Part shown: positions 16,318 through 33,085 of the stretch, in pieces
Layout of the letters: each line of letters begins with the position of its first letter
Position numbering within the stretch: position 1 is the first letter of the stretch
Source of the DNA: Paenibacillus ginsengihumi DSM 21568
GTDB taxonomy: Bacteria; Bacillota; Bacilli; Paenibacillales; NBRC-103111
NCBI RefSeq assembly: GCF_000380965.1
Contig: NZ_KB905552.1
Span: 62,001-126,000, forward strand
DNA: 64,000 bases
Direction: 5' to 3'
Notes under the pieces: model-generated
What the model saw: the letters and a program-made list of their open reading frames with translations, nothing else
Database searches by the model: none
Told to the model about the DNA's origin: nothing
Program-made: the position numbers and the translations under genes

Positions 16318-17764
16318 ACACCAATTCTCCTTCCGATGAAGCGGCCGCCTCCTGCGAAGCGTGCGCGTCCTTGTCTTTCGGCGGCTCCGCAGCAGCAGCG
16401 TTCGCGGATGCTGCTCCTGCGGACGCCGCCATCGCAGCCGATGCTGCTCCCGCGGACGCCGCCACCGCAGCTGCCGCGGCCCCTGCAGCCGTCGCGGCTG
16501 CCGCAGTTGGCACCGCAGCCGCCGCCGTGGTCGCCGCCGCCGCCGTGGTCGCCGCCGCCGCCGTGGTCGCCGCCGCCGCCGTGGTCGCCGCCGCCGCCGT
16601 CGCGCCTGCAGCCGCCGTCCCCGCGGAAGTCTCGGCCGCGGGAGCAGGCGGCCGCAGCCTGGCTGCCTGCCATCCGGCCGGACGCGCGGCGCGATGCTCC
16701 CGGATCAGCTCGAGAAACCGGTCGAACAGCCCGTTGCTGTCGTACGGTCCGGGAGCCGCCTCCGGGTGGAACTGCACCGAGAAGACCGGCAAATACCGGT
16801 GGCGCAGCCCTTCGACGGTGCCGTCGTTATTGTTGATATGCGTAACGACCAGGTCAGTGGCAGCGAGCGAGTCGTCCAGCACCGTGTAGCCGTGATTTTG
16901 CGAGGTGATGAGGCAGCGGCCTGTCGCCAGCTCCTTGACCGGATGGTTGGCGCCGCGGTGGCCGAACGTCAGCTTGCCGGTATCCGCCCCGCAGGCCAGC
17001 GCCAGCAGCTGGTGGCCCAGACAGATGCCGAAGATCGGAATGTCCCCGCCCTCGAGCAGCTCGCGAATAGTGTTGATGGCGTAAGGCGCATCCTTCGGGT
17101 CCCCTGGCCCGTTCGAGAGCAGGATGCCGTCCGGCGAATAGGCGCGGATCTGCTCCGCCGTCGCATCGTGCGGGACGACGACCACGTCGCAGCCGCGGGC
17201 CGTCAGCTCGCGCAGAATGCCGAGCTTGCTGCCGAAATCGACGAGCACGATGCGTTCGCCCGCGCCCGGACAGCGGTAAGCCCGGGGCGTCGAGACGAGC
17301 GCGACCGGCTGGCGCACGGCAGGCATTGCCGCAAGCCGCTCCTTCAGCTCGGCGAGCGGCTCGCCGCCGGTCGCGAGCAGCCCGCGCATCGTGCCGTGCC
17401 GCCGCAGGATGCGGGTCAGCATGCGGGTGTCGATGCCGCTGATGCCGGGAATGCCGTATTCCTTCAGCAGCTGATCCAGATTCGCGCCGGCTCTCCAATG
17501 GCTCGGCGACGTCTCGTGCTTGCGCACGACGAAGCCGCGGATCCACGGACGCATCGATTCGAAATCGTCCCGATTTATGCCGTAATTGCCGATCAGCGGG
17601 TACGTCATCGTCACGATTTGCCCGCAGTAGGAAGGGTCGGACAGTACCTCCTGATAACCGGTCATGCCCGTGTTGAAGACCACCTCGCCGGCAGCTTCCC
17701 CTTCGCTTCCGAACGCCTTCCCTTCAAAGAGAGTGCCGTCCTCCAACAGCAGTCTAGCTTTCAT
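16301..17764 (-). CDS. carA: Carbamoyl-phosphate synthase small subunit with long Ala/Thr-rich C-terminal tail
   Basis: Residues 1-365 form a complete CarA: an N-terminal domain and a class I glutamine amidotransferase with nucleophile Cys248 (GICLGHQ), His333 and Glu335 (QFHPEA). It supplies ammonia to CarB. CarA usually ends near 360-385 residues; this one runs to 487. The extra 117 residues are almost only Ala, Thr, Ser and Gly, including four tandem TTAAAA units encoded by an 18-bp repeat. The likely start is the ATG at 17764; a TTG at 17779 overlaps the ribosome site. The tail runs into the carB start. It looks like stop loss plus triplet expansion, probably a flexible tail. Confidence 0.93.
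16513..16590. repeat. In-frame 18-bp tandem repeat within carA
   Basis: About four copies of GCCGCCGCCGTGGTCGCC (plus strand) encode consecutive TTAAAA units in the CarA tail. Flanking sequence continues as a GCC/GCG-rich imperfect array from about 16370 to 16630. Confidence 0.85.
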
Positions 17765-17832
17765 CTGTCTCACTCCCAAGAATGTATTCGATCAAGCGAC
17801 CGGCACCGGCCGCTGTGCGCCTGCTTCATTTT

Positions 17833-17871
17833 GATTGATTAAATATACAATAAAATGAATAAGTATGCAAT
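17833..17871. promoter_or_regulatory. Tandem ARG boxes overlapping the carAB promoter
   Basis: AATGAATAAGTATGCAAT (17854-17871) closely matches the Bacillus ARG-box consensus ([16 protein letters not shown] type). A second, weaker box GATTGATTAAATATACAA (17833-17850) lies 3 bp away, the standard spacing for an ArgR hexamer. Minus-strand promoter elements TTGCAT (17870-17865) and TATATT (17847-17842), 17 bp apart, fall inside these boxes. ArgR with arginine would repress carAB. Confidence 0.75.
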
Positions 17872-18082: not shown

Positions 18083-19747
18083 TTGGGCGTTACGGTAAGA
18101 AAAGCGATGCAGATCGGGGGGCTGCTCCGCTGCAAGGTTGTTGCGGGAGAACGGGGCCTGGACCGGACGATCGACCACATTACGGTCATGGAAGTGCCGG
18201 ATGTGATTCAGTGGCTGAAAGGAAACGATCTGCTGCTGACGAGCTTATATCCGATCAAGGACGACCGGGAGGCTATCGGAAAGCTGGTGGAGCAGCTCGA
18301 CGAGGTGGGCAGCTCGGCGCTGGCGATCAAGACCCATCGCTACGTGGAGGCGATCCCGGAATCGATCATCGAGGCCGGCAACCGGCTCGGGCTTCCCATT
18401 ATCGAGATTGACAACGAGGTTTCATATCTGGACATAATGACTCCGCTGATGGAGCTTATGCTGACGAGCCGGGATGCGGACAAGGAACCGCTGGAGCCGT
18501 TCTTTCAATGGATTACGGAGCTGGCCATGAGCGGCAAGGGCATTCTGGCGCTGATCGAGGCCGTGCAGCAAATGACGGAGAACATCATTACGGTCGGCTC
18601 GGAAATTCCGCCGCTCGAGAGCTTGTACAAAGGGCGGAACGTCGCTCCGCTGACGCGCGCCCAGAAGAACGAGCTGAAGGCCGCCAAACGCTCGATCCGC
18701 ATGCAGCGGCTGCTCGACGGCCGGATGACGCCGTGCATCGTGACGCCGCTATTGCTGAACGACGAGCTGTACGGCGATGTCACCTGCTGGCATACGAAGC
18801 GCGAGTTCCGGGAGCGGGACTTTCAAGTGCTGGACCGCACGGTGCTGCTGCTGGCGCTCGAGTTCCTGAAGGTGATCACGAAAGCCGATGTGGAGCAGAC
18901 GTTCAAGGACGATTTTTTGTCCGAGGTGCTGCTCGGGCATGTGGCGGACAAGGATGAAGCGATCAAGAGAGGAGAAATATTCGGCTGGGATTTGGACAAA
19001 AATTACCAGGTGCTCTCGATCGCATTCGCCAAGGGCGCCGCGGAAGGCGCCGATCTCGAAGCGCTGTGGGTGCAGGAGCAGAAGCGGAGGCTGCTGCGAA
19101 AAATCAACGAGATTTTCCGTTTCGGCGTGCACAAGATTATTACCACGATCCGCAAAGATTATCTCGTCGTCCTTTATCCGAGAGAGGACGGGAAGAGCGG
19201 GCAGGAATATCCTTACCGCGACGATCCGCAGAAGGAACCGGTCATGCATATGGCGGAATCGGTCAGGCGGCAGCTGGCCCAGGAATTCGAGGAGCTCGCC
19301 TTCACCGTCGGGGTCGGCCGGTTTTATCCGGGACTGGAGGGCATTCACAAGGGATTCTCCGAATCCGTCCAGGCGATCAAGCTGGGCAAGCCGATCAGCG
19401 GAACGAGCGGCTGCGTGCATTACGAGGACCTCGGTATTTTCCGGATATTGAGCCAATTCAACGATTGGAGGGAACTCGAGTCCATCTATTCCGAGACGGT
19501 CGGCAAACTGGTCGAATACGACTGGAGCAGCAACGCCAATCTTGTGGCGACGCTGACGGAATACTTCGCGAACAACTGCTCGTTGTCGGAAACGGCGGAG
19601 AAGCTGTTCGTCCACGTCAATACCATGAAATACCGGCTGCAAAAAATCGAGCAGCTGACCGGCTGCAGCGTGCACGATGCGGAGAAGCGGCTGCTGCTGC
19701 ATGTCGGGCTGAAGATTCATCAGATTTTGCAGGCGGAGAACATATGA
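18083..19747 (+). CDS. PucR family transcriptional regulator
   Basis: The 554-residue protein has the three PucR parts: an N-terminal PucR domain (about 5-130; VRKAMQIGGL, LLLTSLYPIKDD), a middle GGDEF-like region (about 285-430) and a C-terminal HTH_30 (about 480-550; LSETAEKLFVHVNTMKYRLQKIEQLTG). Relatives activate purine or pyrimidine catabolism and transport. The start is a TTG at 18083 behind a GGAGG site; TATAAT occurs at 18026-18031 without a clear -35. It diverges from carAB and is followed by a terminator, so it is transcribed apart from pyrC. Its target is likely the downstream pyrimidine cluster, by position only. Confidence 0.9.
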   Translation: MGVTVRKAMQIGGLLRCKVVAGERGLDRTIDHITVMEVPDVIQWLKGNDLLLTSLYPIKDDREAIGKLVEQLDEVGSSALAIKTHRYVEAIPESIIEAGNRLGLPIIEIDNEVSYLDIMTPLMELMLTSRDADKEPLEPFFQWITELAMSGKGILALIEAVQQMTENIITVGSEIPPLESLYKGRNVAPLTRAQKNELKAAKRSIRMQRLLDGRMTPCIVTPLLLNDELYGDVTCWHTKREFRERDFQVLDRTVLLLALEFLKVITKADVEQTFKDDFLSEVLLGHVADKDEAIKRGEIFGWDLDKNYQVLSIAFAKGAAEGADLEALWVQEQKRRLLRKINEIFRFGVHKIITTIRKDYLVVLYPREDGKSGQEYPYRDDPQKEPVMHMAESVRRQLAQEFEELAFTVGVGRFYPGLEGIHKGFSESVQAIKLGKPISGTSGCVHYEDLGIFRILSQFNDWRELESIYSETVGKLVEYDWSSNANLVATLTEYFANNCSLSETAEKLFVHVNTMKYRLQKIEQLTGCSVHDAEKRLLLHVGLKIHQILQAENI

Positions 19748-19753
19748 CGTTAG

Positions 19754-19783
19754 CCGAACCGACGAATGTCGGTTCCTTTTTTT
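19754..19783 (+). terminator. Terminator after the PucR gene
   Basis: Perfect 8-bp stem GAACCGAC/GTCGGTTC with GAAT loop, followed by CTTTTTTT. Confidence 0.9.
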
Positions 19784-19845
19784 GTCCCGGCAAACATACA
19801 AACCGCGGCGGACTGTTTGATACGATGCAGATATTCGATAGGTTT

Positions 19846-19936
19846 GGCGCTTATGACGACGAATACTTCGTCATCGGTCGCCACCTTCGGTTATTGAAAA
19901 TTCGCCGGGTAGTATCGTCGAATGATCAGAATAGAA
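19846..19936 (+). repeat. Dispersed repeat B upstream of pyrC
   Basis: GCTTATGACGACGAATACTT, CGTCATCGGTCGCCACCTTCGG and ATTGAAAATTCGCCGG match element B, ending in AGAATAG. The AAGGAG ribosome site of pyrC begins immediately after it. Confidence 0.75.
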
Positions 19937-19950
19937 GGAGTGAAGCCGCT

Positions 19951-21264
19951 GTGAAAACGCTTATTGTTAACGGAACGGTGATCGATCCGGCCAGCGGATT
20001 GAACCGGCGGACGAACGTTCTCGTGGAAGACGGGCGGGTCGCGCAGATCGGCAATACGCCCTCAAGCGCCGCAGACCGTGTCATTGATGCGGAAGGCCTG
20101 CTCGTCGTGCCGGGTCTAGTCGACATTCATGTGCATTTTCGGGAACCGGGCTTTACGCATAAAGAGACGATCCATACCGGCTCCTTGGCGGCGGCGGCCG
20201 GCGGATTTACCGCCGTCGTCTGCATGCCCAATACAAGGCCGGCGATCGATACGGTCGAGACGCTCGCCCAAGTGCTGGAAACCGGCCGGCGGGACGGCCT
20301 GGTCAAGCTGTTCTCATCGGCAGCCATCACCTACGGCATTGAAGGCAGCAGGCTGACGGATATGGAAAGCCTGCATCAGGCGGGAGCCGTCACCTTCACT
20401 GACGACGGCAAAACGGTGATGGACCCGCATCTGCTGTATGAGGCGTTCCGGCGGGCGGCGGAGCTGGATGTGCCGATCAGCTCTCACTGCGAGGATCACC
20501 GCCTGGTCGACCGCGGCGCGCTGAACCGGGGAGCTACGAGCCGCCGGCTGGGCGACCCGGGCATCCCTGCGCTTGGCGAGGAGCTGATTATCGCCCGCGA
20601 TATTTTGTTCGCCGAGGAGACGGGGGCGCGCCTCCATATCCAGCATGTGTCGACGGCTCGCGGGGTGCAACTGATCCGCGAGGCCAAGGCCAGAGGGGTG
20701 CGCGTCACGGCGGAGGGCGCTCCGCACCATTTCACGCTCACGGACGAGCAGGCGCTGATCAGCGGCACGCTGGCCAAGGTGAATCCGCCGCTGCGCACGG
20801 CGCGGGATGTGGAGGCGGTTGCCCAAGGGCTCCGCGACGGGACGCTGGACGCGATCGCGACCGACCACGCGCCCCATACGCTGGAGGAGAAGTCGCTGCC
20901 GCTGGACCGGGCCCCGTTCGGCATGGTCGGCCTGGAGACGGCCGTCGGCCTGACGTTTACCCGGCTCGTGCATACCGGCTTGCTGACGGCCGAGCAGGCG
21001 ATCGCCAAGCTGACCAGCGCCCCGGCGGCCGTGATGGGGCTGCCGGTCGGCCGGCTGGCGGCAGGGCTCGATGCGGATATTGCGATCATCGACCCGCAGA
21101 AGGAATGGGTCGTCGATCCGCAAACCTTTCTCTCCCGCTCGCGCAATACCCCGTTTGGCGGCATGAGGCTGACCGGAAAAACCGTCCTTACGATGGTGAG
21201 GGGAGACATTATTTACGACGATAGGGAAGGAGCGGACAATCCTTGGCCGGCGGATGCCGACTGA
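19951..21264 (+). CDS. pyrC: Dihydroorotase (class I)
   Basis: The 437-residue amidohydrolase has dihydroorotase signatures: metal-binding [10 protein letters not shown] (about residues 55-64), [51 protein letters not shown] and MVGLETA. It interconverts N-carbamoyl-L-aspartate and L-dihydroorotate. The GTG start follows AAGGAG at good spacing. deoB follows after 11 nt, so they are co-transcribed. Motifs favour dihydroorotase over dihydropyrimidinase or allantoinase. There is no pyrB next to it, unlike the standard pyr operon, so its direction (biosynthesis or orotate breakdown) is open. Confidence 0.92.
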
Positions 21265-21275
21265 GGGAAACGAAC

Positions 21276-22490
21276 ATGACGACTCCGTTTAGAAGAATCG
21301 TATTGATCGTGCTAGACAGCGTAGGCATTGGCGAGCTGCCTGACGCTTACCGCTACGGCGATGCCGGGGCGAATACGCTCGGGCATATTGCGGAGGCGGC
21401 AGGCCCCTTGGCGCTGCCTCATCTGGAGCGGCTCGGACTCGGCTGCATCGGCCGCATCCGGGGCGTCGCTCCGGCGGCGCGCCCCGCGGCTTATTACGGC
21501 CGAATGGCCGAGGTCTCCGCGGGGAAAGATACGTTAACAGGCCACTGGGAATTGATGGGCCTGCAGCTCCAGACGCCGTTCCGGGCCTACCCGAGAGGCT
21601 TTCCCGAGGAGCTTGTGAGCGCCTTGGAGGCGGCCTCCGGCCGAGCGGTCATCGGCAACCGGCCCGCTTCCGGCACGGAAATTATCGACGAACTCGGTCC
21701 GCGTCACCTGCAGACCGGCGAGCTGATCGTCTATACGTCCGCCGACAGCGTGCTGCAGATAGCCGCTCACGAGGAGATCGTGCCGCTGGACGAGCTGTAT
21801 GCGATTTGCGCCCAAGCCAGAGCCATGACGCTGCATGAGCCTTATTCCGTCGGACGGGTGATCGCCCGGCCGTTCATCGGGACGCCGGGGCAATTCTCGC
21901 GGACGGCGAACCGGAGAGACTTTGCGGTCAGCCCTCCGCAGCCGACCGTGCTGAGCCGCCTGGCGGACGCCGGCTTCGACAGCATCGGCATCGGCAAAAT
22001 CTCCGATATATACTCCGGCGAAGGCATCACGCGCAGCGTGAAGACGAAGTCGAACCGCGAAGGCGTCGACCGGGTCATTGAGGAGATGCAGAGCGACTTT
22101 CACGGGCTGTGCTTTCTGAATCTGGTCGACTTCGACGCCATATATGGTCATCGGCGGGACCCGGAAGGCTACGCCGCGGCGCTGCGGGAGTTCGACGAGC
22201 GTCTGCCGGAGGTGCTCGGCGCCATGCGGCCTAGCGATCTGCTGATCATTACCGCCGATCACGGCAACGATCCGACGCACCACGGCACCGATCATACCCG
22301 GGAGTATGTGCCGCTGCTGGCTGTCCCGTACGGCGCGGACGGCGGGAAAGACCTGGGCGTCCGCGCGACGCTGGCGGATGTCGGCGCTACTGTGGCGGAC
22401 AATTTTCAAGTCGAGCCGCCCCGGCACGGCACAAGCTTCCTTCGGGAGCTCGCCGCCGCTGGCGAGAATCGCCGGCCTGCAGGCCGTTAG
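21276..22490 (+). CDS. deoB: Phosphopentomutase
   Basis: The 404-residue alkaline-phosphatase-superfamily enzyme has DeoB signatures: [16 protein letters not shown] at the N terminus, DTLTGHWE with the phosphorylated Thr, the metal ligands in [11 protein letters not shown] and ITADHGNDP, and [12 protein letters not shown]. It interconverts (deoxy)ribose 1-phosphate and 5-phosphate. The ATG at 21276 has a GAGGGAAACG ribosome site. With the nucleoside phosphorylase 1.9 kb downstream it connects nucleosides to the pentose phosphate pool. Confidence 0.95.
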
Positions 22491-22832
22491 GCCGATCGCT
22501 TTGCAGCGGGCGGCATAGGAAAAAAGATCTATTCTTTTTTGGGGTAGATCAATGCAGCTTCGGGTCCTACGGCTCTATGAAAAAATAAAAACTTAAAATT
22601 CGTCCTATTTTGATGTATATTTACTGTGATATAACATAACATATTGGAACAATTAAACATTACACCTCTCAGATTTGATATCGGAAAGGATGAATTTTCG
22701 TCTATTTTTTTGTCCTTTCAGACATATTTACTAACATTAAAAAAATATAGAATATAAGTGGAGTAAAGTCGGTTTTTGCAGCTTAGCATCCTATTTTTGT
22801 CGAAAGACTAGGAAAAAGGAAGTGTTTCCGAC
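22491..22832 (+). promoter_or_regulatory. AT-rich control region upstream of the importer operon
   Basis: Much AT-richer than its surroundings, with no gene. It has three related motifs: CGTCCTATTTTGATG (22600-22614), CGTCTATTTTTTTG (22699-22712) and CATCCTATTTTTGTCG (22787-22802). The first two are each followed by a TATATTTACT/CATATTTACT. There is also an inverted repeat TGTCCTTTCAGACA (22711-22724). These could be binding sites for the PucR protein. A weak A/T hairpin at 22519-22541 may end the pyrC-deoB transcript. The exact promoter is not clear. Confidence 0.4.
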
Positions 22833-23573
22833 GTGTCAACAGCGATCCGCATTGAAGATGTCAACAAGATCTATAAATCGAGCGGGGGCCGGGAGGTTCA
22901 CGCGTTATCCCATATTCATCTGGACGTTCGGCAAAGCGAGTTTATTTCCATCATCGGTCCTTCGGGCTGCGGCAAATCGACGCTGCTGCGCATTCTCGCG
23001 AACCTGGATCAGCCTTCTTCCGGCCGCATTCACTGGGAAAGCTCGGCCGACCATATCGGCTTCGTCTTTCAGGACGCGACGCTGCTGCCGTGGAAGACGG
23101 TATATCAGAATGCGAAGTTTCCGCTGGAGGTCAAGAAGCTGGATACGAAGGAAAACTTGGCGAAGCTGGACAAGCTGCTGGAGCTGGCCGGCCTCAAAGG
23201 ATTTGAAAAGGCATATCCGCGCGAGCTGTCCGGCGGCATGAGACAGCGGGTGTCGATCGTCCGGGCGCTGTCCTACAATCCGGACGTGCTGCTGATGGAC
23301 GAGCCGTTCGGCGCCCTGGACGCGCTGACCCGCGACAAGATGGGCATCGAGCTGATGCGGATCTGGAACGAGACGAAGAAGACGATCTTGTTCGTCACTC
23401 ACAGCATTGCCGAAGCGGTATTCTTGTCCGACCGCGTTATCGTCATGTCCCCCCGTCCCGGCAAAATCGACGAGATCCTAAATATCGACCTGCCTCGTCC
23501 GCGGACGGTCGATGTGAAGGAAACGCCCGAGTTCGGCAGCTACGTGAAAAAATTAAGGGAAGTGTTGGGCTGA
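22833..23573 (+). CDS. ABC transporter ATPase (SsuB/TauB/ThiZ type)
   Basis: The 246-residue protein has Walker A GPSGCGKST, a Q-loop (FQDATLLPW), the signature LSGGMRQRV, Walker B VLLMDEPFGALD and the H-loop FVTHSIAEA. It belongs to the nitrate/sulfonate/pyrimidine-precursor importer group. GTG start behind GGAAG. Its stop overlaps the next permease start by one base. It likely energises both permeases in the operon, as it is the only ATPase there. Confidence 0.93.
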   Translation: MSTAIRIEDVNKIYKSSGGREVHALSHIHLDVRQSEFISIIGPSGCGKSTLLRILANLDQPSSGRIHWESSADHIGFVFQDATLLPWKTVYQNAKFPLEVKKLDTKENLAKLDKLLELAGLKGFEKAYPRELSGGMRQRVSIVRALSYNPDVLLMDEPFGALDALTRDKMGIELMRIWNETKKTILFVTHSIAEAVFLSDRVIVMSPRPGKIDEILNIDLPRPRTVDVKETPEFGSYVKKLREVLG

Positions 23574-24349
23574 TGTCACGATTTAGACTGATTGGCGAAT
23601 ACGCCGTCGCGATCGCCATCCTTGTTCTAGTATGGTTCGTCTATGTCATCGTTTTTGACGTGCCCTCGTTCATCCTGCCGCTTCCGTCCGACGTCGGTCG
23701 GGCTTTGATCGATATGATTCCGGAGCAGGACGTCGCCATGCATTTCCTTGTTACCTCCGGCGAGGTGCTGGCCGGGTTCGTGCTCGGTACGATTCTGGGC
23801 TATGTCATCGGGTATCTTATCGGCAAGATCAAGTTTCTGGAAGAAGCGCTCATGCCGTACATTTTGCTTGCCCAGACGGCGCCGAAAATCGCCCTTGCCC
23901 CGCTGTTCGTCATTTGGTTCGGGCTCGGCTTCGTTTCCAAGCTGGTGCTGATTATCTCCATGGTCTTTTTCCCCGTTATGCTTGGCGCGATGTTCGGACT
24001 GAAGAGCATCGACTACAACCTGAAATGTCTGATGCAGATTACCGGCTTATCCTGGTGGCAGAAGATCGTGCAGGTCGAGCTGCCTCATTCGCTGCCGCAA
24101 ATTTTCGCCGGGCTGAAGGTCGGTATGGTCCAAGCGGTCATCGCGGCGATCGTGGCCGAATGGATATCCGGCGAAAGCGGGCTCGGATATCTGCTTGTAT
24201 TCAACAGCACGACGTACAATTCGCCAATGCTGTTCGCCAGCATCATTTATACCATCATTATGGGTATTCTTTTCTACGCGCTCATCAGCTTCTTGGAGAA
24301 CCGCTTCCTGTTCTGGCACGACTCCAAGCAGACTGTGCGCAAATCTTAA
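23573..24349 (+). CDS. ABC transporter permease (SsuC type), first of two
   Basis: The 258-residue membrane protein has about six segments and a permease EAA-type loop (LMQITGLSWWQKIVQVELPHSLPQIF, in the middle third) of the nitrate/sulfonate/taurine family. It starts at an ATG overlapping the ATPase stop, so the two are translationally coupled. The second permease (26253) is related in sequence order: AQTAPKIALAPLFVIWFG here, AQIAPKISIAPLFVLWFG there. This suggests a duplicated, probably heterodimeric channel. Confidence 0.92.
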   Translation: MSRFRLIGEYAVAIAILVLVWFVYVIVFDVPSFILPLPSDVGRALIDMIPEQDVAMHFLVTSGEVLAGFVLGTILGYVIGYLIGKIKFLEEALMPYILLAQTAPKIALAPLFVIWFGLGFVSKLVLIISMVFFPVMLGAMFGLKSIDYNLKCLMQITGLSWWQKIVQVELPHSLPQIFAGLKVGMVQAVIAAIVAEWISGESGLGYLLVFNSTTYNSPMLFASIIYTIIMGILFYALISFLENRFLFWHDSKQTVRKS

Positions 24350-24401
24350 CATATTATGGCTGAATATGGCTAAAATTCTCGAGAGGAGGTGACGATATAT
24401 A

Positions 24402-25196
24402 GTGAGCAGCAGATTTATCCAGGCGGATTTCCCTCTTTACGAAGGGACGAAGGTGCCGCATCTTCGCATTGCCGAAGGCGATGTGGCGCCCTATGTTCTG
24501 CTTCCGGGAGATCCCGGCCGCGTCGAGCTGATTTCCGAGCTGTTCGACAACTACAAGATTTTAAGCTCGAACCGCGAATTCAAGGTAGGAACCGGCGAAT
24601 CCGGCGGCCACCCCGTTTCTGTCTGTTCTACGGGCATCGGCGGGCCTTCGACGGAAATCGCCGTCCTCGAATTGCTGCGGCTGAAGGCCAAGTGCCTGAT
24701 CCGCATCGGCGGCACGGGCGCGATACAGGAGGGGATCGAATGCGGCGACTTGATCATTAACACCGGCAGCGTTCGACTGGGAGGAACCGCTGCGCATTAC
24801 GCGCGTCCCGAATATCCTGCGGTTGCCAACCATTATGTGGTGCAGGCGCTGGTGGAGGCGTGCGAGACGCTGGGCTATCGCTATCATCTCGGGATCGGCG
24901 CGACGACCTCTTCCTTCTATCATGGACAGGACCGGAACGTCGCCGGCTACAATTATTCCGACGGCATGATTCAGGAAATGAAAGCTTTGGGCGTATTGAA
25001 TCTGGAGATGGAATCGGAGACGCTCCTGACGATCGCCTCGGTGATGGGAGCTTATGCCGGAACGCTGCTTGTCGTGCACGCCAACCGCGCGACGAATCAG
25101 TGGCTGGTCGATTATGAAGAAAGCCAGCTGAAGCTGTGCAGAGCCGCATTGCTCGCCATCGACAAAATCATTCAAAAGGGGATTATTCCGCAATGA
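24402..25196 (+). CDS. udp: Uridine phosphorylase-like nucleoside phosphorylase
   Basis: The 264-residue protein is a trimeric/hexameric NP-I family phosphorylase: LLPGDPGRV (phosphate loop), STGIGGPSTEIAVLEL, IRIGGTGAIQ and NLEMES (ribose binding). It splits uridine-type nucleosides with phosphate into base and ribose 1-phosphate, reversibly. GTG start with a full GAGGAGGTGA ribosome site. It sits between the first permease and the binding protein of an importer and overlaps the latter by 4 nt, so transport and phosphorolysis are coupled. The exact base (uracil, or another pyrimidine such as orotate) is not decided by sequence. Confidence 0.85.
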   Translation: MSSRFIQADFPLYEGTKVPHLRIAEGDVAPYVLLPGDPGRVELISELFDNYKILSSNREFKVGTGESGGHPVSVCSTGIGGPSTEIAVLELLRLKAKCLIRIGGTGAIQEGIECGDLIINTGSVRLGGTAAHYARPEYPAVANHYVVQALVEACETLGYRYHLGIGATTSSFYHGQDRNVAGYNYSDGMIQEMKALGVLNLEMESETLLTIASVMGAYAGTLLVVHANRATNQWLVDYEESQLKLCRAALLAIDKIIQKGIIPQ

Positions 25197-26236
25197 AAAA
25201 AGTATTGAGCACGATTGTGTCCATTGCCCTTGTGTCCGTTATGGCCGCCTGCGGATCGGGCGCCGGCGGAGGCGGTACGGCCCAGACGCCGGCTGCCGGC
25301 GGCGGCGAAACTCCGCAGAAAGAAGTCAAGAAGGTGACCGTGCAAATCGACGGAGCGGCCGTTCCTTATTACGCTCCGCTGTATGTCGCCAAGGAAGAAG
25401 GATACTTCGAAGAGCAAGGACTGGATGTCGATTTCGTCTATGCCGACGCTGCCAGCATCGTCAAGAACGTGGCGGCCGACAACGTGCAGTTCGGCTTCCC
25501 GAACGCGGATGCCGTCATTACGGCAAAGTCTCAGGATATCCCGGTGAAGGTCGTGCACACGACGTATCAGCGCGGACTGGGCGCCGTTATTTTCAAGAAG
25601 GATAAAGGCATTGCGCAGCCTCAAGATTTGAAGGGCAAGACGGTTGCCGTCACCAGCTTCGGCAGCCCGAACTATATCCAATTGCAGGTTATGCTTGAGC
25701 AGAACGGACTGAGCATCAAGGACGTCAACACGAAAATCGTCGGCACCGGGGCGATCGTCAATGCGCTCGTATCCGATGAGGTGGACGCCATTGCCTTCTC
25801 CATGCTGAGAACGGTCGAGCTGCGCAACAGCGGCGTGGAAGTAGATGAAATCCGTTCGGACGAATACCTTCCTTCGTTCGGCAACGTGGTCATCACCTCC
25901 GACAAGTTCCTGGAATCGAACAAGGACAGTGTGATCGGCTTCAATACGGCTTTGAACAAAGCGCTGGACTACATCATCGGCGGCAACGCGAAGGCTGCGA
26001 TTGACATGTCCATCAAGAAATACGCGCAGGCTTCGGAAGGCAAGCAGGAGATTACGGAAAAAATCTTTAACGACGTGTTCATTCCTTATCTGTGGCAAAG
26101 CGATCTGACCAAGAAAGACGGGTTTGGAGCGGCTGACATGGCAAGATGGCAGACAGCAATCGATACGCAGAAGAAATTCGACGTCATCAAGAAGGAATTC
26201 AAGGCTGAAGACCTCGTCGTGACGAATCTGAAGTAA
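25193..26236 (+). CDS. NMT1/THI5-like substrate-binding lipoprotein
   Basis: The 347-residue lipoprotein has a lipobox MAAC (Cys20), a Gly-rich linker and an NMT1/SsuA-type binding domain (PYYAPLYVAKEEGYFEEQGLDVD split by short loops, then ADNVQFGFPNADAVI and LKGKTVAVTSFGSP). Relatives bind thiamine precursors, pyrimidines, sulfonates or nitrate. The ATG overlaps the phosphorylase stop (ATGA) and follows AAGGGG. With pyrimidine genes on both sides, the ligand is probably a pyrimidine base or nucleoside; this is inferred. Confidence 0.92.
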   Translation: MKKVLSTIVSIALVSVMAACGSGAGGGGTAQTPAAGGGETPQKEVKKVTVQIDGAAVPYYAPLYVAKEEGYFEEQGLDVDFVYADAASIVKNVAADNVQFGFPNADAVITAKSQDIPVKVVHTTYQRGLGAVIFKKDKGIAQPQDLKGKTVAVTSFGSPNYIQLQVMLEQNGLSIKDVNTKIVGTGAIVNALVSDEVDAIAFSMLRTVELRNSGVEVDEIRSDEYLPSFGNVVITSDKFLESNKDSVIGFNTALNKALDYIIGGNAKAAIDMSIKKYAQASEGKQEITEKIFNDVFIPYLWQSDLTKKDGFGAADMARWQTAIDTQKKFDVIKKEFKAEDLVVTNLK

Positions 26237-26252
26237 TGCAGGGGTGATCGGT

Positions 26253-27026
26253 TTGAATAAATACGGACGCAAGACCGTTCTGGCTATCGGTACACTGATC
26301 ACGTTCCTGCTGCTGTGGCAAGCCTATGTCTCCGTGTTTCAGGTTCCGCCGCAAATTTTGCCGGCTCCGCTGGCGTTTGCTAGCAAGTTCTGGAGCAATC
26401 TGACCATGGGCGGCATCGGCGCTCATATCGGCACGACGCTTTACGAAATATTCATCGGCTTTGTCATCGGCAGCCTGCTGGGACTGGTGTTCGGGTATTT
26501 GCTGGCCAAGAGCGTGCTGCTCGAGCGTCTGTTCACTCCGTACATCGTCCTGGCTCAGATCGCGCCGAAAATTTCGATCGCTCCGCTGTTCGTGCTGTGG
26601 TTCGGCCTGGGGGCGAGCTCCAAGATCGCCTTGGTCATCCTGGTCGTCTTCTTCCCGATCATGGTCAATACGATCATCGGGATTCGGTCCGTGGAGCGGA
26701 ATATGCAGGATTTGCTGCATATTTTGAAAGCCAACCGCTGGCAGCGGTTCTATTCGGTCGAAATCCCGTACTCGCTTCCGTCCATCATGTCGGGCTTGAA
26801 AGTATCCACGACCTATGCGATTACCGGCGCCGTCATCGGTGAGATGATCGGGGCCAAGGCGGGGCTCGGCTATCTGGTCATTCTCGGCAGCGAAACGTTC
26901 GATATCAATATGATCTTAACGGCAGTTCTCTTGCTGAGCGTTATGGGCTTGATCTTGTACTTGCTATCCAACTACCTAGAGAAGAAAGTACTTCATTGGC
27001 ACGAATCGCAAGAAATGATCATGTAA
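26253..27026 (+). CDS. ABC transporter permease (SsuC type), second of two
   Basis: About 257 residues, six membrane segments, EAA-type loop (LHILKANRWQRFYSVEIPYSLPSIM). A GTG at 26244 is in frame, but the TTG at 26253 has the AGGGGTGA ribosome site at the right distance. It is a paralogue of the permease at 23573. A good terminator follows, closing a unit of ATPase, permease, phosphorylase, binding protein, permease. Confidence 0.92.
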   Translation: MNKYGRKTVLAIGTLITFLLLWQAYVSVFQVPPQILPAPLAFASKFWSNLTMGGIGAHIGTTLYEIFIGFVIGSLLGLVFGYLLAKSVLLERLFTPYIVLAQIAPKISIAPLFVLWFGLGASSKIALVILVVFFPIMVNTIIGIRSVERNMQDLLHILKANRWQRFYSVEIPYSLPSIMSGLKVSTTYAITGAVIGEMIGAKAGLGYLVILGSETFDINMILTAVLLLSVMGLILYLLSNYLEKKVLHWHESQEMIM

Positions 27027-27046
27027 CCCGCGGGCCCTGCTCCGCC

Positions 27047-27094
27047 AGCCCCCTTCGACTTGTTCAGCTTTTGAGAGTCTGAGGGGGCTTTTTT
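27047..27094 (+). terminator. Terminator of the importer operon
   Basis: Stem GCCCCCT/AGGGGGC around a loop of about 28 nt with its own weak pairing, then TTTTTT. Confidence 0.85.
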
Positions 27095-27279
27095 CAAAGC
27101 TTCGCATCGTCTTGATAAACGGCGCATCGTCCTGATAGATACATCGGGACGGCGAAGCCGTTTATTGTGGTCCGAGCGGACAAATCCCGCTGGTTTCTTT
27201 CGGCTTCCGCCACAACGACGGCCTGGCCTCATTCCACTATAATGGAAGCAAAGCTGAGGTTTGATCGAGGTGAAGCATC

Positions 27280-28593
27280 GTGAATATAGATCGATTGGAA
27301 GCGTCGATGCGGGAAATCAACGAGTTTGGCGGAACGCCGGAAGGCGGGATTACCCGGCTGGCCTATACGGCGGAGCATTGGGCGGCCACTCGCTACTTTA
27401 TGAAGCAATGCGAGGAGCAGGGGATGTCGGTGCGGATTGATGCCTGCGGCAATGTGATCGCCCGGCGCCCGGGCCTGGTCAGCAATTTGCCGGCGGTAGC
27501 CTGCGGCTCGCATCTCGATACGGTGCAGCAGGGCGGCCGCTTTGACGGCACACTCGGCGTTATGGCCGGGCTGGAGCTGGTAAGAGGCTTGAATGAGCGC
27601 GGAATCGCCACGCGCCATCCCATAGAAGTAATATCGTTCGCCTGCGAGGAATCAGCCCGTTTCGGCGTCTCTACCGTCGGCAGCAAGGCAATGGCGGGGA
27701 AGCTGAACCGCGCGTCGCTGGAGCGGCTGCATGACAAGGAGGGCATCTCGTTCGAGGAGGCGCTGTCCGCGGTAGGATTGGATGTTAACCGCATAGAAAG
27801 CTCCCGTCGCAGCGGCAAGGAGCTCAAAGCGTTTTTCGAGCTGCATATCGAGCAGGGACCGGTTCTGGAGGAGAGCGGGATCGACGTCGGAATCGTTGCC
27901 GGCATCGCCGCCCCGGCCCGCCTGGAGATTACGATCCAGGGCAGAGCCTCGCATTCCGGCACGACGCCCATGACGATGCGCAAGGACGCGCTCATCGGCG
28001 CAGCCGAAATCATTTTGGAGCTGGAGCGGGCTGCGCTGGCGGAATCGTCGTCCGGAACGGTAGCGACCGCCGGCGTCTGCGACGTTCGGCCCGGGGCGAT
28101 GAATGTGGTGCCGGATCAGGTTATGCTGCAGGTCGACGTGCGGGGAACGAAGAAGTCCTCCCGGCAAGCGGTCATCGAGCGCATCTACGGCGTGATGAGC
28201 CGTCTGGAGCTGGAGCGCGGCCTGCGCTCCGAAGTTCGCGTGCTGAGCGACGAGGAGCCGGTGCTGCTGGACAACCGGACGGCCGATCTGCTCGCCGAGC
28301 AGTGTGAGCGCCTGGGCGTCAGCCATGTCCGCATGATGAGCGGAGCGGGGCATGACGCGATGAATATGGCGGCGCTCTGTCCGACGGGGATGATCTTTGT
28401 GCCGTCGAAGGGCGGCCTGAGCCACCACAAGGACGAGTACAGCGCGACAAGCCAGATCGCGCGTGGCGCCTTCCTGCTGGAAGCGGCCGTGCTGAAGTGC
28501 GCTGAGGCGGTTTCGGACGAATCGAAGGACGCGATTATTACTTTGAATAGGGGACATCAGCATGAGAGCGGCAAAGCTAAAGGTATTGTCTAA
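27280..28593 (+). CDS. M20-family Zn-dependent N-carbamoyl amidohydrolase (hydantoinase/carbamoylase type)
   Basis: The 437-residue protein has the di-zinc site of the AllC/PydC/HyuC group: His78 and Asp80 in GSHLDTV, Asp89 in RFDG, Glu123/Glu124 in CEESARFG, His189 in ELHIEQGP, and the dimerisation region ASHSGTTPM. It hydrolyses N-carbamoyl compounds to amino acid, CO2 and ammonia. GTG start behind GAGGTGA; TATAAT at 27238-27243 may be its promoter. It overlaps pyrK by 32 nt. Family members act on N-carbamoyl-beta-alanine, allantoate, ureidoglycine or N-carbamoyl amino acids. Next to pyrC and pyrKD, N-carbamoyl-L-aspartate is a plausible substrate. Confidence 0.85.
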   Translation: MNIDRLEASMREINEFGGTPEGGITRLAYTAEHWAATRYFMKQCEEQGMSVRIDACGNVIARRPGLVSNLPAVACGSHLDTVQQGGRFDGTLGVMAGLELVRGLNERGIATRHPIEVISFACEESARFGVSTVGSKAMAGKLNRASLERLHDKEGISFEEALSAVGLDVNRIESSRRSGKELKAFFELHIEQGPVLEESGIDVGIVAGIAAPARLEITIQGRASHSGTTPMTMRKDALIGAAEIILELERAALAESSSGTVATAGVCDVRPGAMNVVPDQVMLQVDVRGTKKSSRQAVIERIYGVMSRLELERGLRSEVRVLSDEEPVLLDNRTADLLAEQCERLGVSHVRMMSGAGHDAMNMAALCPTGMIFVPSKGGLSHHKDEYSATSQIARGAFLLEAAVLKCAEAVSDESKDAIITLNRGHQHESGKAKGIV

Positions 28594-29350
28594 TCGGCAA
28601 GTCAGCGAACGGTACTGGCATATGGTTGTCGACGCGTCGGAATTGCAGGAGGACGTCAGGCCGGGTCAATTTTTTAATTTTCGCTGCTCTGACGAGTACG
28701 ATCCTTTGCTGCGCCGGCCGTTCAGCATCTACCGGATCAACCGGACCGAGCATACGCTCGAGTTTCTGTATTTGGTGAAAGGGCTCGGCACCCGGCGGCT
28801 GACCGGGGTCGCTGCGGGAGACCAGGTCGACGTATTCGGCCCGCTGGGCCAGGGATTCACTCTGAAGGGACATGGCGGCTCGATCTTGATGCTGGCCCGC
28901 GGAGTCGGCATTGCGACGCTGGCTGCTCTGGCCCAGGAGGCGGCGCAGCAGGGAGTGCGCAGCGTGGCGGTGCTTAGCGCCCGGTCCCGCAACGATCTGC
29001 TTGCGGCCGAAACGCTGCAAGGCTTGGGCGCCGAAGTCTATAAGGTTACCGACGAAGACGGCAGCAGCGCGGTCGAGGAGGTTCGGCCTCTGCTGGAGCG
29101 GATTGTCCGGGAACGCGATATCCAGGCGGCTTATACGTGCGGCTCCAAGCGGCTGTCTCTGCTGCTGCAGGACATCGCCGCCCGCAATGGCATTTTCGCG
29201 GAGATTGCGCTGGAGGAGCATATGGGCTGCGCGATGGGCGTCTGCTTCGCCTGCGTATGCGATATCCGGCAGGCGGACGGCACGTCCCGCACGGTGCGCG
29301 TATGCAAGGAAGGGCCGGTTTTCCCGCTGGAACAGGTGGTGCTGACATGA
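28562..29350 (+). CDS. pyrK: Dihydroorotate dehydrogenase electron-transfer subunit
   Basis: The 262-residue flavoprotein has the FAD-binding RRPFSIYR (51-58), a reductase fold and a C-terminal [2Fe-2S] site with Cys223, Cys228, Cys231 and Cys248. It passes electrons between NAD(H) and PyrD. The usual Gly-rich NAD motif (GGGIGxxPL) reads ARGVGIATL here, so nicotinamide binding may be altered. ATG with a GGGGA site inside the end of the carbamoylase gene; it overlaps pyrD by 4 nt. Confidence 0.92.
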   Translation: MRAAKLKVLSNRQVSERYWHMVVDASELQEDVRPGQFFNFRCSDEYDPLLRRPFSIYRINRTEHTLEFLYLVKGLGTRRLTGVAAGDQVDVFGPLGQGFTLKGHGGSILMLARGVGIATLAALAQEAAQQGVRSVAVLSARSRNDLLAAETLQGLGAEVYKVTDEDGSSAVEEVRPLLERIVRERDIQAAYTCGSKRLSLLLQDIAARNGIFAEIALEEHMGCAMGVCFACVCDIRQADGTSRTVRVCKEGPVFPLEQVVLT

Positions 29351-30282
29351 GCAAGCGAAGCTTATCAGAGGCGGATTTGCGCCTGGATGTGAACATCGGC
29401 AGTCTGCGGCTGCAAAATCCTATTATGCCGGCATCGGGCGCTTTCGGCGAGGATATGGACGAGGTCATCGATTTCAACGAGCTAGCGGCCATCGTCCCTA
29501 AGAGCATCACGAAAGAACCGCGCAAAGGAAACAAGACGCCCAGGGTGTGCGAAACGCCGGCGGGCATGATTAATTCCATCGGCATACAAAGCAAAGGGCT
29601 CGCTTATTACCTGGAGCATACGCTGCCGTATTACCGCCAATACAAGATTCCGCTCATCTCCAGCATTTCCGCCGATTCGTTCGACGAATTCGCCGAGATG
29701 AGCGAGACGATCGGGGGCACCGAGGGCGTGGCGGCGCTCGAGCTGAACATCTCGTGCCCGAACCTCAAAGGCAACGGGCTTGCCTTCGGCATGGATCCGG
29801 AAGCGACCTTCCAGCTGATCCGCCGGGTGAAGGAGGTCACGGACAAGCCGATTATCGCCAAGCTGACGCCGAATGTGACCAGCATTCAGGAGATTGCCCT
29901 TGCCGCTGAGCGGGGCGGTGCGGACGGGCTGAACGTGGCGAACACGATTCTGGCGATGGCGATTGATATTCACACGCGCAGGCCGAAGATCGGCAATGTC
30001 ATGGGAGGACTATCCGGACCTGCGGTCAAGCCGATTATCGTCCGGATGATTTACCAGGTGCGGCAAGTTTCCAAGCTGCCCATTATCGGATGCGGCGGCG
30101 TGATGAACGGCGAGGATGCGATCGAGATGCTGCTGGCCGGAGCGTCCGCCGTGCAGGTGGGAACGGCCAATTTCGTTCAGCCGACGGCCATGATCGATAT
30201 TTTGCGGGAGATCAAGGACTACATGCTTCAATATAATATCGAGGATATTCGCGAATTGATCGGGGCTGCCGTGCAGGATTAA
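29347..30282 (+). CDS. pyrD: Dihydroorotate dehydrogenase, class 1B catalytic subunit
   Basis: The 311-residue FMN barrel has class 1 signatures: MPASGAFG, SIGIQSKG, the catalytic-base Cys137 in ELNISCPN, and GCGGVMNGEDAIEML for FMN phosphate. It interconverts dihydroorotate and orotate, with PyrK linking it to NAD(H). The start overlaps the pyrK stop. pyrF follows after 72 nt. Class 1B enzymes are reversible, and the clostridial relatives were described from orotate fermentation, which matters for the meaning of this cluster. Confidence 0.93.
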   Translation: MSKRSLSEADLRLDVNIGSLRLQNPIMPASGAFGEDMDEVIDFNELAAIVPKSITKEPRKGNKTPRVCETPAGMINSIGIQSKGLAYYLEHTLPYYRQYKIPLISSISADSFDEFAEMSETIGGTEGVAALELNISCPNLKGNGLAFGMDPEATFQLIRRVKEVTDKPIIAKLTPNVTSIQEIALAAERGGADGLNVANTILAMAIDIHTRRPKIGNVMGGLSGPAVKPIIVRMIYQVRQVSKLPIIGCGGVMNGEDAIEMLLAGASAVQVGTANFVQPTAMIDILREIKDYMLQYNIEDIRELIGAAVQD

Positions 30283-30354
30283 CCGGATCGGCTCCGATTT
30301 GGCATCGACGCCGGACGATCGAGGAAGAATCTTATTCTGAAAGAAGTGAGGCTT

Positions 30355-31326
30355 ATGTTTCTTCCACCTCCCAAGTCCCATATTATTTTAGCCTTGGATA
30401 CGCCGGACCGGACGGCAAGCCTGCGCGTGCTGGAGCAGTGCCGGGACGTCGTGGATGCGGTCAAAATCAACTATCCGCTCATTTTGCAGGAGGGCTTGTC
30501 CTTTGTCAAAGAGCTTAAGGATACGTACGGTCTGCCGATTATCGCCGATTTGAAAATCGCCGACGTGCCCGTAACCAACAACCGGATTGTGCGGATGGCC
30601 AAGCAAGCCGGTGTCAGCGCGGTGATGGCGCACGGCTTTATCGGACCGGATGCGCTCGTGGAAATTCTCGAGGTGGCGGGGGAAGATCTGGGCATCTTCG
30701 TCGTCACCGAGCTGACGCATCCGGGCGGGCTCGAATTCACCCGGCCTCACGCCCGGCAGTTCGCCGAGATGGCCGCCTACCTCGGATGCTACGGCATTCA
30801 GGCGCCGGGCACCCGGCCCGATCAAATTCGCGCGCTGCGGGAGACGGTCGGCCCGGAACTGGTCATGATCGCCTGCGGCATCGGCGCTCAAGGCGGCACG
30901 CTGCAGGCAGCCATCCAGGCGGGAGCGGACTTCGGCATCATCGGCCGGGCCATCTACGATGCGCCGAATCCGCGGGAAGCGGCGCTGCGCATTGCCGCTT
31001 CGTCGGCGGACGCGTCAGCCGTCGTTAAGGATGTTCAGGTTGTGCGCTATTGCTCCGAGACCGAGTCCTACACCTTGCGGGTGGAACCGACGGATGAGAT
31101 GAGGGAGATCGTCAAGGCTTTCGTCCGGTATTGTCAAAATCACCGCATCGGATTGACCATGCATCTCGACGGTGGCATTTTGCTGCGGAAGGAAAAGCAT
31201 GTTATTCATTTTTACAGAGACGGCCATTGCTTGCTAAGCAACATGCATTCGGCGAGGGAGGGCGAAGAGTGGGCCCGAAGATGGTTTCAGGAAATCAAGC
31301 GGGATATGAGCGAAGCGGATTCGTAA
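30355..31326 (+). CDS. pyrF: Archaeal-type orotidine 5'-phosphate decarboxylase with extra C-terminal domain
   Basis: Residues 1-215 form an OMP decarboxylase barrel of the archaeal-type branch. The catalytic residues are present: Asp15, Lys37 and the Asp65-x-Lys67-x2-Asp70 array (DLKIADVP), with phosphate contacts in GTRPDQ and GRAIY. It converts OMP to UMP. PyrF usually ends near 230-240 residues; here about 100 more follow (221-323), with a predicted mix of strands and helices and no similarity I recognise. The ATG at 30355 or a GTG at 30346 could be the start; GAGG lies close to the ATG. No pyrE is adjacent. Confidence 0.88.
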   Translation: MFLPPPKSHIILALDTPDRTASLRVLEQCRDVVDAVKINYPLILQEGLSFVKELKDTYGLPIIADLKIADVPVTNNRIVRMAKQAGVSAVMAHGFIGPDALVEILEVAGEDLGIFVVTELTHPGGLEFTRPHARQFAEMAAYLGCYGIQAPGTRPDQIRALRETVGPELVMIACGIGAQGGTLQAAIQAGADFGIIGRAIYDAPNPREAALRIAASSADASAVVKDVQVVRYCSETESYTLRVEPTDEMREIVKAFVRYCQNHRIGLTMHLDGGILLRKEKHVIHFYRDGHCLLSNMHSAREGEEWARRWFQEIKRDMSEADS

Positions 31327-31375: not shown

Positions 31376-33085
31376 ATGAACGTGTTGGATATGCTTAGAA
31401 ATCTTAATATCCGGTCCAAAATTTGGCTGCTCAACGCAAGCGCGATCGTATTTATACTTCTCGTGTCGATCGTCGGATTCGCCTATATGTCGAAGCTGGC
31501 AGCCAATTCGCAGCAAATGTACCAAAACCGGCTGCTTCCGGTTAAATGGGTCAACAGCATGCAGACATATATGCGGACCAGCGAAGTCATGATGCTGGAA
31601 TTCATGACGACGAAGGACGGGCTCTCCTTGAACCGCATGGAGGAGCAGAATGAGCTGATCGACGGCATCATCGCCGAATACGGCAAGCTGGCCTCCGATC
31701 CGAAGGAGCTGGAGCTGCTGCAGCAGTATACGGAGGCGCTGCCCAAGTTTCGCGAAGCGGCCGTCAAGGTGACGAAGCTGGCGGAGGAAGGCCAGGAGGC
31801 GGCTGCTTACGATGCGTATGTGAACGAGGTCGGCATGATCGGGGCGCAAATTCATAACGCCCTGTCGGAGCTGTCCGAGTACAACCAGCAGGTGGCCGAG
31901 CAGTTGTATGTCCAGAGCGAGCGGGATGCCGGCACGGCCAAGACGATTTCCATCTTATGCACGCTGCTGGCCGTCGCGCTGTTTGTAGGCTTGGGATATG
32001 CGGTGAGCAGGGTAATTACCGGGCCGTTGCAATCGTTGAGGCAGCGGATGATTTTGGCGGAAGCCGGCGATTTGTCAGTAACGGGAGATTATCCTTACAA
32101 AGACGAGCTCGGCGAGCTGAACCGGTCGTTCAATACGATGCTTGACGGCTTGCGCGGACTGATCGCGAGCGTGGCGGACAATGCGCTGACCGTCTCGGCC
32201 AGCGCGGAGCAGCTGCTGGCGAGCACGGAGCAAGGGACGCGGGCGTCGGAGCAGATCGCTTCGTCCAGCGAGCATTTGGCCCGCGAGCTGGACCAGCAGG
32301 CGGCGAGCCTGCGGGAGGCATCTGCCGAGGTGGTTCGGATGACGGGCAACACCGAGTCGATCGGCGCCAGCAGCGAGGAAGTGTACCGATCGGCGGGAAC
32401 GGCTGCGGCTGCCTCGAAGGACGGAGCGTCGACGGTACAGTCGGCATCGGAGCAGATGAGGGCCATTTACTCTACGGTGCAGGCGCTGGATGGGATGATC
32501 AGCTCGCTGACGGACCATATTCGGGAAATCGGCAGCTTTGCCGTCATCATTCAGGAAATTTCCGCCCAGACGAACCTGCTGTCGTTGAATGCGGCGATCG
32601 AGGCGGCCCGGGCCGGGGAAGCGGGCAAAGGCTTCACCGTTGTCGCCGACGAGGTGCGCAAGCTGGCCGACCAGTCGGGCGATGCCTCTGTTCGAATTAC
32701 GAAGCGGATTCAGTCTATCCAAAGCGAGATGCAGCGCCTGGCAAGTTCTATGAAGCAAGGGCTGCTTGAAGCGGAACAAGGGATCGACAAGACGCACCAG
32801 GCGCAGGACGCTTTCGGACGCATTGACGAAGCGGTCGAACGCGTTTATGTCGGTGTCGCATCGGTCAGACAGAGCATTGAGGAACTGACCGCCAGCAGCC
32901 AAAGCATCGCGTCGGCGATGGAGCTTGTCAATGAGGTGACGAAGGAAGGCATGGCGGTGAGCCAGCAGACATCGGCGTCGAGCCAGGAGCAGCTCTCAAG
33001 CATGGAGGAGATTCGCCACTCGGCGGATGCGCTGGCCAAGCTTGCGGAAGAGCTGCAGCTATCGCTGAACCGTTTTAAGATTTAG
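31376..33085 (+). CDS. Methyl-accepting chemotaxis protein
   Basis: The 569-residue receptor has a membrane helix at about 15-38, an extracellular four-helix bundle (about 40-185; 4HB_MCP type), a second membrane helix (about 190-212), a HAMP linker (213-265) and a long cytoplasmic coiled coil with the conserved tip [20 protein letters not shown] followed by [15 protein letters not shown]. It signals ligand state to CheA/CheW. A GGAGGGTGA ribosome site precedes the ATG. It follows pyrF by 49 nt without a terminator and may be co-transcribed; sensing of the imported pyrimidine is possible but only inferred. Its TAG stop is part of the next repeat. Confidence 0.95.

Follow-up and report, generated by a model that had tools for sequence, protein, structure and literature searches.

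The stretch analysed here, 64,000 nt from Paenibacillus ginsengihumi DSM 21568 (the window; contig C5 of genome G000, an assembly of 5.68 Mb and 99.69% complete), carries at positions 18083–31326 a cluster of pyrimidine genes beside a PucR-type regulator, which we consider as a possible orotate-degradation module. Genes were named from Pfam and NCBIfam profile scans against the family cut-offs, as follows.

18083–19747, plus strand: PucR-type regulator, probable regulator of the cluster (PF07905 116 bits, HTH_30 83.5 bits, GGDEF_2 64.4 bits)
19951–21264, plus strand: PyrC2, dihydroorotase-type cyclic amidohydrolase (TIGR00857 429 bits, cut-off 279)
21276–22490, plus strand: DeoB phosphopentomutase (NF003766 568 bits, cut-off 256)
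22833–23573, plus strand: ATP-binding cassette (ABC) importer ATPase (PF00005)
23573–24349, plus strand: ABC importer permease 1 (PF00528)
24402–25196, plus strand: nucleoside phosphorylase of the uridine phosphorylase family (TIGR01718 238.9 bits, below the cut-off of 280.3)
about 25187–26236, plus strand: NMT1/SsuA-type substrate-binding lipoprotein (PF09084 151.7 bits)
26244–27026, plus strand: ABC importer permease 2 (PF00528)
27280–28593, plus strand: M20 carbamoylase, candidate N-carbamoyl-L-aspartate hydrolase (ureidosuccinase) (NF006771 492 bits, cut-off 399; TIGR01879 442.5 bits, cut-off 204)
28562–29350, plus strand: PyrK electron-transfer subunit (DHODB_Fe-S_bind 52 bits, cut-off 23.9; NF000799 177 bits, short of its cut-off of 314)
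29347–30282, plus strand: PyrD, class 1B (TIGR01037 354.7 bits, cut-off 270)
30346 or 30355–31326, plus strand: PyrF, archaeal-type orotidine 5'-monophosphate (OMP) decarboxylase (NF010386 215.2 bits, cut-off 208)

The family scans recover every gene named in the original prediction, which had read the cluster as a route from orotate to aspartate, and find pyrB, pyrE and pyrR missing from it as that prediction had stated; its "NMT1-type importer" is an ABC system of four genes, and the overlap it saw between the M20 gene and pyrK amounts to 32 bases. The gene gaps suggest four transcription units, pucR, pyrC2-deoB, ATPase-permease-phosphorylase-binding protein-permease and M20-pyrK-pyrD-pyrF. 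The start codon of pyrC2 is GTG, preceded by AGAAGGAG, and an Rfam scan of the window returns no family at its gathering score.

The original prediction depended on there being further copies of these pyr genes, and the genome has them. Contig C3 carries pyrR, pyrB, pyrC, carA, carB, pyrF and pyrE in that order, each over at least one NCBIfam cut-off, without pyrK-pyrD, and a quinone-type class 2 PyrD lies on contig C21 (TIGR01036 440.7 bits, cut-off 200). The features of a de novo operon that are absent from the cluster, namely pyrB, pyrE and a PyrR element (RF00515 58 bits, gathering score 54), are present on C3. With full pyr genes elsewhere, the cluster genes are therefore second copies and not the pyrimidine pathway of the cell; the separate operon and the further dihydroorotate dehydrogenase (DHODH) rule out a reading of the cluster as the sole biosynthetic copy. 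DeoB is likewise present twice, once in the cluster, and the phosphorylase has no second copy in the genome at E ≤ 1e-10. Allantoin genes lie on contig C45, where the equivalog models for allantoinase and allantoate hydrolase are both matched.

The closest kin of the window's cluster by these genes are Paenibacillus, and most of the gene set recurs with its order kept in five named Paenibacillus genomes, DeoB being missing in one and PyrF in three. Linkage of the carbamoylase to pyrK, which the original prediction proposed to look for in relatives, is recurrent: in the best 80 of 178 M20 relatives among named genomes, the M20 gene adjoins PyrK and PyrD at 27 loci. Both forms of conservation mark the grouping as more than a chance one. 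M20, PyrK and PyrD are constant by choice in these 27, and other genes were counted anywhere in the loci of up to 21 kb, which gives PucR in 24, an amidohydrolase in 26 (PyrC2-type in 5, another lineage in 21) and an importer in 26 (NMT1-ABC in 5, DctPQM tripartite ATP-independent periplasmic in 13, aromatic-acid-symport-like major facilitator superfamily (MFS) in 8). The sole linked locus without an amidohydrolase, L046, has molybdenum-hydroxylase-like genes, recognised by eye, just before pucR (4531–8263). CapA-like genes (PGA_cap) occur in 16 of the 27 loci and a nitroreductase gene in 9, for example at L076 14469–16553; a CapA-like protein scores 293.9 bits against the MslH epimerase model (cut-off 700), and a racemase role is imaginable.

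PyrK of at least 69% identity is found in 7 of 104 family genomes, the window's included, and three more have a PyrK at 33–35%; L034, the only one of those three loci that was read, shows no M20 match nearby. PyrD of at least 72% identity is present in 10 of the 398 class genomes sampled, again with the window's included, followed by one at 62%, about six at 51–59% and others listed at ≤52%; the pyr-operon PyrDs, at 42–48%, fall within this low range. Family genomes G016, G092, G098, G093 and G089 are counted once with loci L037, L036, L035, L038 and L039. Such scattered presence fits an optional trait. The genus-mate G076 has PucR, PyrC2, M20, PyrK and PyrD together with other ABC genes, and phosphorylase, DeoB and PyrF were not found in the 19.5 kb read of its locus, so that these three look accessory. 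Directly after pyrD of the G076 version stand genes for nitrile hydratase alpha and beta and an isochorismatase-family hydrolase (L032 2255–4742, minus strand).

Class 1B DHODHs are NAD-linked and reversible. The TIGR01037 score, the adjoining PyrK and the presence of another DHODH elsewhere mark the window's PyrKD as a putative class 1B enzyme apart from biosynthesis; its PyrD scores 274.8 bits against DHODB (1ep1) and 99.5 bits against dihydropyrimidine dehydrogenase (1gt8), and with 148.9 bits against the PreA model (cut-off 335) falls outside the PreA/PydA type. A DHO_dh search of 28 cluster genomes, those of 26 of the 27 linked loci (L057, on a short contig, was left out) with G000 and G076, finds a further DHO_dh besides the cluster copy in all 28, and the 18 non-cluster class 1B copies read all lie in the order carB-pyrK-pyrD-pyrF-pyrE. 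A PyrD tree rooted on class 2, with 29 sequences from clusters and 18 from pyr operons (it omits the canonical PyrD of L034), unites all the cluster sequences in a single clade separate from the operon ones (FastTree support 0.907). The two sets differ at 15 positions that are at least 90% conserved on both sides, several of them around the loop INSIGIQSK. Ten of the 28 genomes have, in addition, a PreA-like DHO_dh by score and length; five of these ten loci were read, each contains the gene, and in four a hydrolase with DPHTHLDMP adjoins it. Of these genes, two scored against the NCBIfam PreA model pass it (678.6 and 683.4 bits, cut-off 335), as does one neighbour scored against the dihydropyrimidinase model (664.3 bits, cut-off 393). 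Uracil reduction in those cells is therefore very likely the business of a separate locus.

In a tree of the ring-opening enzymes the seven PyrC2 copies group next to biosynthetic PyrC, as a clade of their own, with FastTree support of 1.0 for the nine; the other amidohydrolase lineage is separate (0.981), and the Pyd dihydropyrimidinases and the allantoinase also lie apart from PyrC2. HxHxR and MPN(T/S) are present in all 7 PyrC2 copies (MPNT in the window's) and in 21 of 21 other-lineage copies of linked loci, and are absent from the genome's own allantoinase (HVHICEPG, MPLNALP) and from the four Pyd dihydropyrimidinases read (HTHLDMP, FCLT/FCMH). In dihydroorotase structures the Arg and Asn of these motifs bind the dihydroorotate carboxylate, and their presence in both lineages that fill this step speaks for an acid substrate. 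The TIGR00857 score, HxHxR, MPNT and the clade shared with PyrC all point to PyrC2 as a dihydroorotase, and its scores stay under the cut-offs for dihydropyrimidinase (TIGR02033 200 bits, cut-off 393) and allantoinase (TIGR03178 255 bits, cut-off 357.85).

The M20 enzyme would be the weakest link of an orotate route, as a candidate ureidosuccinase. Its closest solved relative is 3n5f, an N-carbamoyl-L-amino acid hydrolase, and it scores 327 bits against allantoate deiminase NF006768, below the cut-off of 532. Arg 214 was considered as a diagnostic residue and dropped, since every one of the 53 unlinked copies has it, and the allantoate hydrolase of the genome too.

The importers are of three unrelated types, two of them organic-acid-like. 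For the three MFS importers tested, the top-scoring family is aromatic-acid/H+ symport, yet its cut-off is not reached, and the one DctP tested is over its family cut-off. Excerpts from two papers describe import of orotate by E. coli DctA (PMC5703999, PMC13328217), which makes such acid carriers plausible orotate carriers. His174 and His226 of the phosphorylase are invariant in the six cluster copies, with Pro and Ile at these positions in the solved uridine phosphorylases set beside them, and could be the mark of a different base; the enzyme suggests orotidine or uridine. PyrF carries a C-terminal extension in 3 of 104 family genomes, always in this cluster. In the window this domain of about 97 residues (31033–31326) lies outside Pfam and PDB-sequence matches, and its model has a predicted local distance difference test score of 90.5 and a weak likeness to TATA-binding protein folds; a Foldseek search with the model gives no match at E ≤ 0.001.

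Control by PucR, as originally predicted, gains a candidate operator before each of the pyrC2, importer and carbamoylase units.

19749–19798, unstranded: tandem operator-like pair before pyrC2 (boxes at 19749 and 19781; pair pattern with 1 mismatch, G000:C5:81750-81796)
22677–22726, unstranded: tandem operator-like pair before the importer unit (right box at 22709; pair pattern with 1 mismatch, G000:C5:84678-84724)
27167–27216, unstranded: tandem operator-like pair before the carbamoylase unit (boxes at 27167 and 27199; pair pattern with 3 mismatches, G000:C5:89168-89214)

The 7-mer GGACAAA occurs in 15 of 24 upstream regions from six Paenibacillus-type loci, which are kin, so that the regions are not independent; the maximum for any 7-mer in 100 base-shuffles is 10. 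It resolves into the palindrome TTTGTC-N6-GACAAA, which with up to 2 mismatches has 108 matches in the 29 cluster loci against 36.8 expected from first-order resampling, and 85 against 89.4 expected in 53 control loci with M20 without PyrKD. Spacing between boxes is sharply preferred in the cluster loci, with 34 pairs at 32 bp and the next most, 8, at 33 bp, compared to 6 each at 32 bp and 20 bp in the control loci, where three of the pairs (L041 twice, L043) belong to loci with a PucR of this kind. The motif was discovered on the six Paenibacillus-type loci, and the independent check is confined to 20 of the 34 pairs; the pair of the importer unit, with too weak a left box, is left out of the 32-bp count. 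Pairs mostly precede PyrC2, ABC, DctP, MFS or M20 genes, and the one before pyrC2 overlaps a terminator-like hairpin after pucR.

Genome-wide, a 47-base pair pattern allowing up to 3 mismatches was compared with the same pattern read backwards, palindromic sites being counted on both strands. In G000 five sites match, and three of these, including both one-mismatch sites, precede units of the cluster, compared to one match for the control; the six Paenibacillus-type genomes (G000, G104–G108) have 47 against 12, and all 28 genomes have 126 against 70, with some at or under the control and none in G109. We consider PucR a candidate binder of the pair, and if the units are operons, phosphorylase, DeoB and PyrF would fall in one regulon with M20-PyrKD. 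TCGTC-type repeats before the window's units were also considered as a control site and rejected, since they are not found in five relatives. A further operator-like pair lies at G110:C33:913294, about 11.6 kb upstream of the M20 pair of L046.

From these features we infer that the cluster is probably a PucR-controlled catabolic module taking orotate, perhaps orotidine, to aspartate, ammonia and CO2. The second copies and the conserved linkage support the catabolic role put forward in the original prediction; the exact molecule, which it gave as orotate or dihydroorotate, could be orotate, orotidine or a close analogue. The importer would take up orotate. In the version found in the window its load may instead be orotidine, to be cleaved by the phosphorylase into orotate and ribose-1-phosphate, with DeoB dealing with the sugar phosphate. 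PyrKD, running in the NADH-oxidising direction, would reduce orotate to dihydroorotate, PyrC2 would open the ring to give N-carbamoyl-L-aspartate, and the M20 enzyme would decarbamoylate this to aspartate, ammonia and CO2. If the housekeeping PyrE makes OMP from the imported orotate, PyrF may turn this into uridine 5'-monophosphate, which is a guess, and orotidine as the entry substrate is a bold extra. More tentatively, with the balance tipping slightly against its holding in every part, the loci may represent an unrecognised orotate-degradation regulon of Bacilli, with its own NADH-linked PyrKD clade, interchangeable dihydroorotases and importers, an N-carbamoyl-L-aspartate hydrolase gene and a PucR operator made up of two palindromes at a distance of three helical turns. 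In the window's lineage this regulon would have been extended to an orotidine route by the gain of DeoB, an orotidine phosphorylase and an OMP decarboxylase bearing a novel C-terminal domain.

Several observations weigh against orotate degradation. The PyrKD-linked M20 copies do not form one clade, their label changing 12 times on the tree with at least 7 changes forced (nonetheless fewer than in any of 500 shuffles), and their sole marker column is a weak one, 271 P; because of both, the substrate of the M20 enzyme cannot be read from its sequence, and its NCBIfam names are generic (allantoate amidohydrolase). The Bacilli-type members of the other amidohydrolase lineage, L109 included, score slightly higher on the allantoinase than on the dihydroorotase model, and 3 of the 4 tested pass both cut-offs. 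Directly next to the substrate loop, the cluster PyrDs have INSIGIQSK where the operon enzymes have LNAIGLQNP, and this difference could reflect another substrate. An importer of the NMT1 kind gives no pointer to a carboxylate, and phosphorylase, DeoB and PyrF are unnecessary for orotate and fit uridine equally. A search for the boxes confined to the window is not significant (2 matches, 0.46 expected, 2 reached in 9 of 100 shuffles), and outside the Paenibacillus-type genomes the pair pattern is hardly above its control.

The PyrD changes beside the substrate loop, the CapA-like and nitroreductase genes of the Bacilli versions and the nitrile hydratase genes adjoining the G076 version would all suit a ring-carboxylate analogue in place of orotate, such as a 5-substituted orotate, uracil-5-carboxylate or a hydantoin acid. 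We regard this as unlikely, as the PyrC-clade dihydroorotase of the Paenibacillus version suggests dihydroorotate itself and a hydantoin would need no PyrKD. Catabolism of uridine or uracil, with imported uridine cleaved by the phosphorylase, uracil reduced by PyrKD, PyrC2 acting as dihydropyrimidinase and M20 as beta-ureidopropionase, draws on the uridine-phosphorylase-family enzyme and DeoB in the cluster, on the occurrence of N-carbamoyl-beta-alanine hydrolases among M20 enzymes, and on G000 having only two DHO_dh matches (E ≤ 1e-15) and so no PreA-type enzyme of its own. We set it aside as quite unlikely on family scores, trees and the separate PreA loci: PyrD is far closer to 1ep1 than to 1gt8, ten of the 28 genomes carry a further, PreA-like DHO_dh, in a locus of its own in the five read, PyrC2 groups with dihydroorotases and has their motif, and the G076 version shows neither phosphorylase nor DeoB in the stretch read. 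Back-up biosynthesis, in which the NAD-linked DHODH would serve anoxic pyrimidine synthesis in an organism whose other PyrD is quinone-dependent and whose PyrC and PyrF are duplicated too, is highly improbable given that the cluster lacks pyrB and pyrE and has PucR instead of PyrR, that the intermediate would be lost to the carbamoylase encoded alongside, and that in 18 of the 28 cluster genomes the pyr operon has a PyrKD of its own already.

The cluster is flanked by carAB on one side and a chemotaxis gene on the other.

13126–17779, minus strand: carA and carB, divergent neighbours of pucR (both over an NCBIfam cut-off)

The divergent carA-pucR neighbourhood is found here and in five relatives. 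The original prediction thought that carAB looked arginine-controlled, which is supported by an ARG-box-like 16-base site with one mismatch at 17855–17870 (0.09 expected; at least one match in 9 of 100 shuffles). The carA frame of the window has 492 codons, and its NCBIfam match stops at residue 363. Downstream, a methyl-accepting chemotaxis gene (31376–33085) has a counterpart in 4 of the 5 named Paenibacillus relatives at 55–58% identity; with the same position kept, its product may sense the substrate of the cluster.

The breakdown of orotate to aspartate is textbook biochemistry from one anaerobe, and to our knowledge the genes of the route, above all that for ureidosuccinase (EC 3.5.1.7), have not been clearly assigned. 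Among the matches listed from open-licence literature, whose titles and abstract openings were covered, none describes the degradation of orotate, these genes, their control site or their distribution. If orotate degradation is correct, genes would be assigned to a route hitherto mainly known from old enzyme work; annotators could mistake the cluster in such genomes for a duplicate set of pyrimidine-synthesis genes, and biosynthesis could not be inferred from a pyrC or pyrKD match alone. With the operator-like pair in hand, the regulon can be searched for and the ligand of PucR tested.

The cluster shares features with several known systems. PucR-regulated ureide clusters differ in that the allantoinase and allantoate hydrolase equivalogs are matched by the separate C45 cluster and not here. 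The pyr operon of Bacilli (pyrR-B-C-carAB-K-D-F-E) has homologues of PyrC, PyrK, PyrD and PyrF and the same pyrK-pyrD-pyrF order, whereas the cluster lacks pyrB, pyrE and the PyrR element, stands divergent to a carAB with an ARG-box-like site, contains a carbamoylase and an importer, and has its own PyrD clade. ErtD and ErtE of ergothioneine breakdown likewise pair a cyclic amidohydrolase with an M20 enzyme acting on an N-carbamoyl dicarboxylic amino acid, but use a hydantoin and no PyrKD, and the window's M20 scores 428.7 bits against the ErtE model (cut-off 520). PydABC and PreTA, as outlined in excerpts from PMC7332683, run dehydrogenase, cyclic amidohydrolase and decarbamoylation in the same order; in contrast, PreA/PydA has ferredoxin domains, the dihydropyrimidinase lacks the Arg of HxHxR, and the genes occupy a separate locus in five cluster genomes read. 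A parallel in chemistry is Clostridium (Zymobacterium, now Faecalicatena) oroticum, which Lieberman and Kornberg reportedly found to ferment orotate via dihydroorotate and N-carbamoyl-aspartate to aspartate. The proposed module would use the same three chemical steps and a DHODH of class 1B, the class to which excerpts from PMC10395836 assign the C. oroticum enzyme. C. oroticum is an anaerobe known by enzyme work, whereas the cluster belongs to Bacilli and comes with PucR, an operator-like pair and importers of several types.

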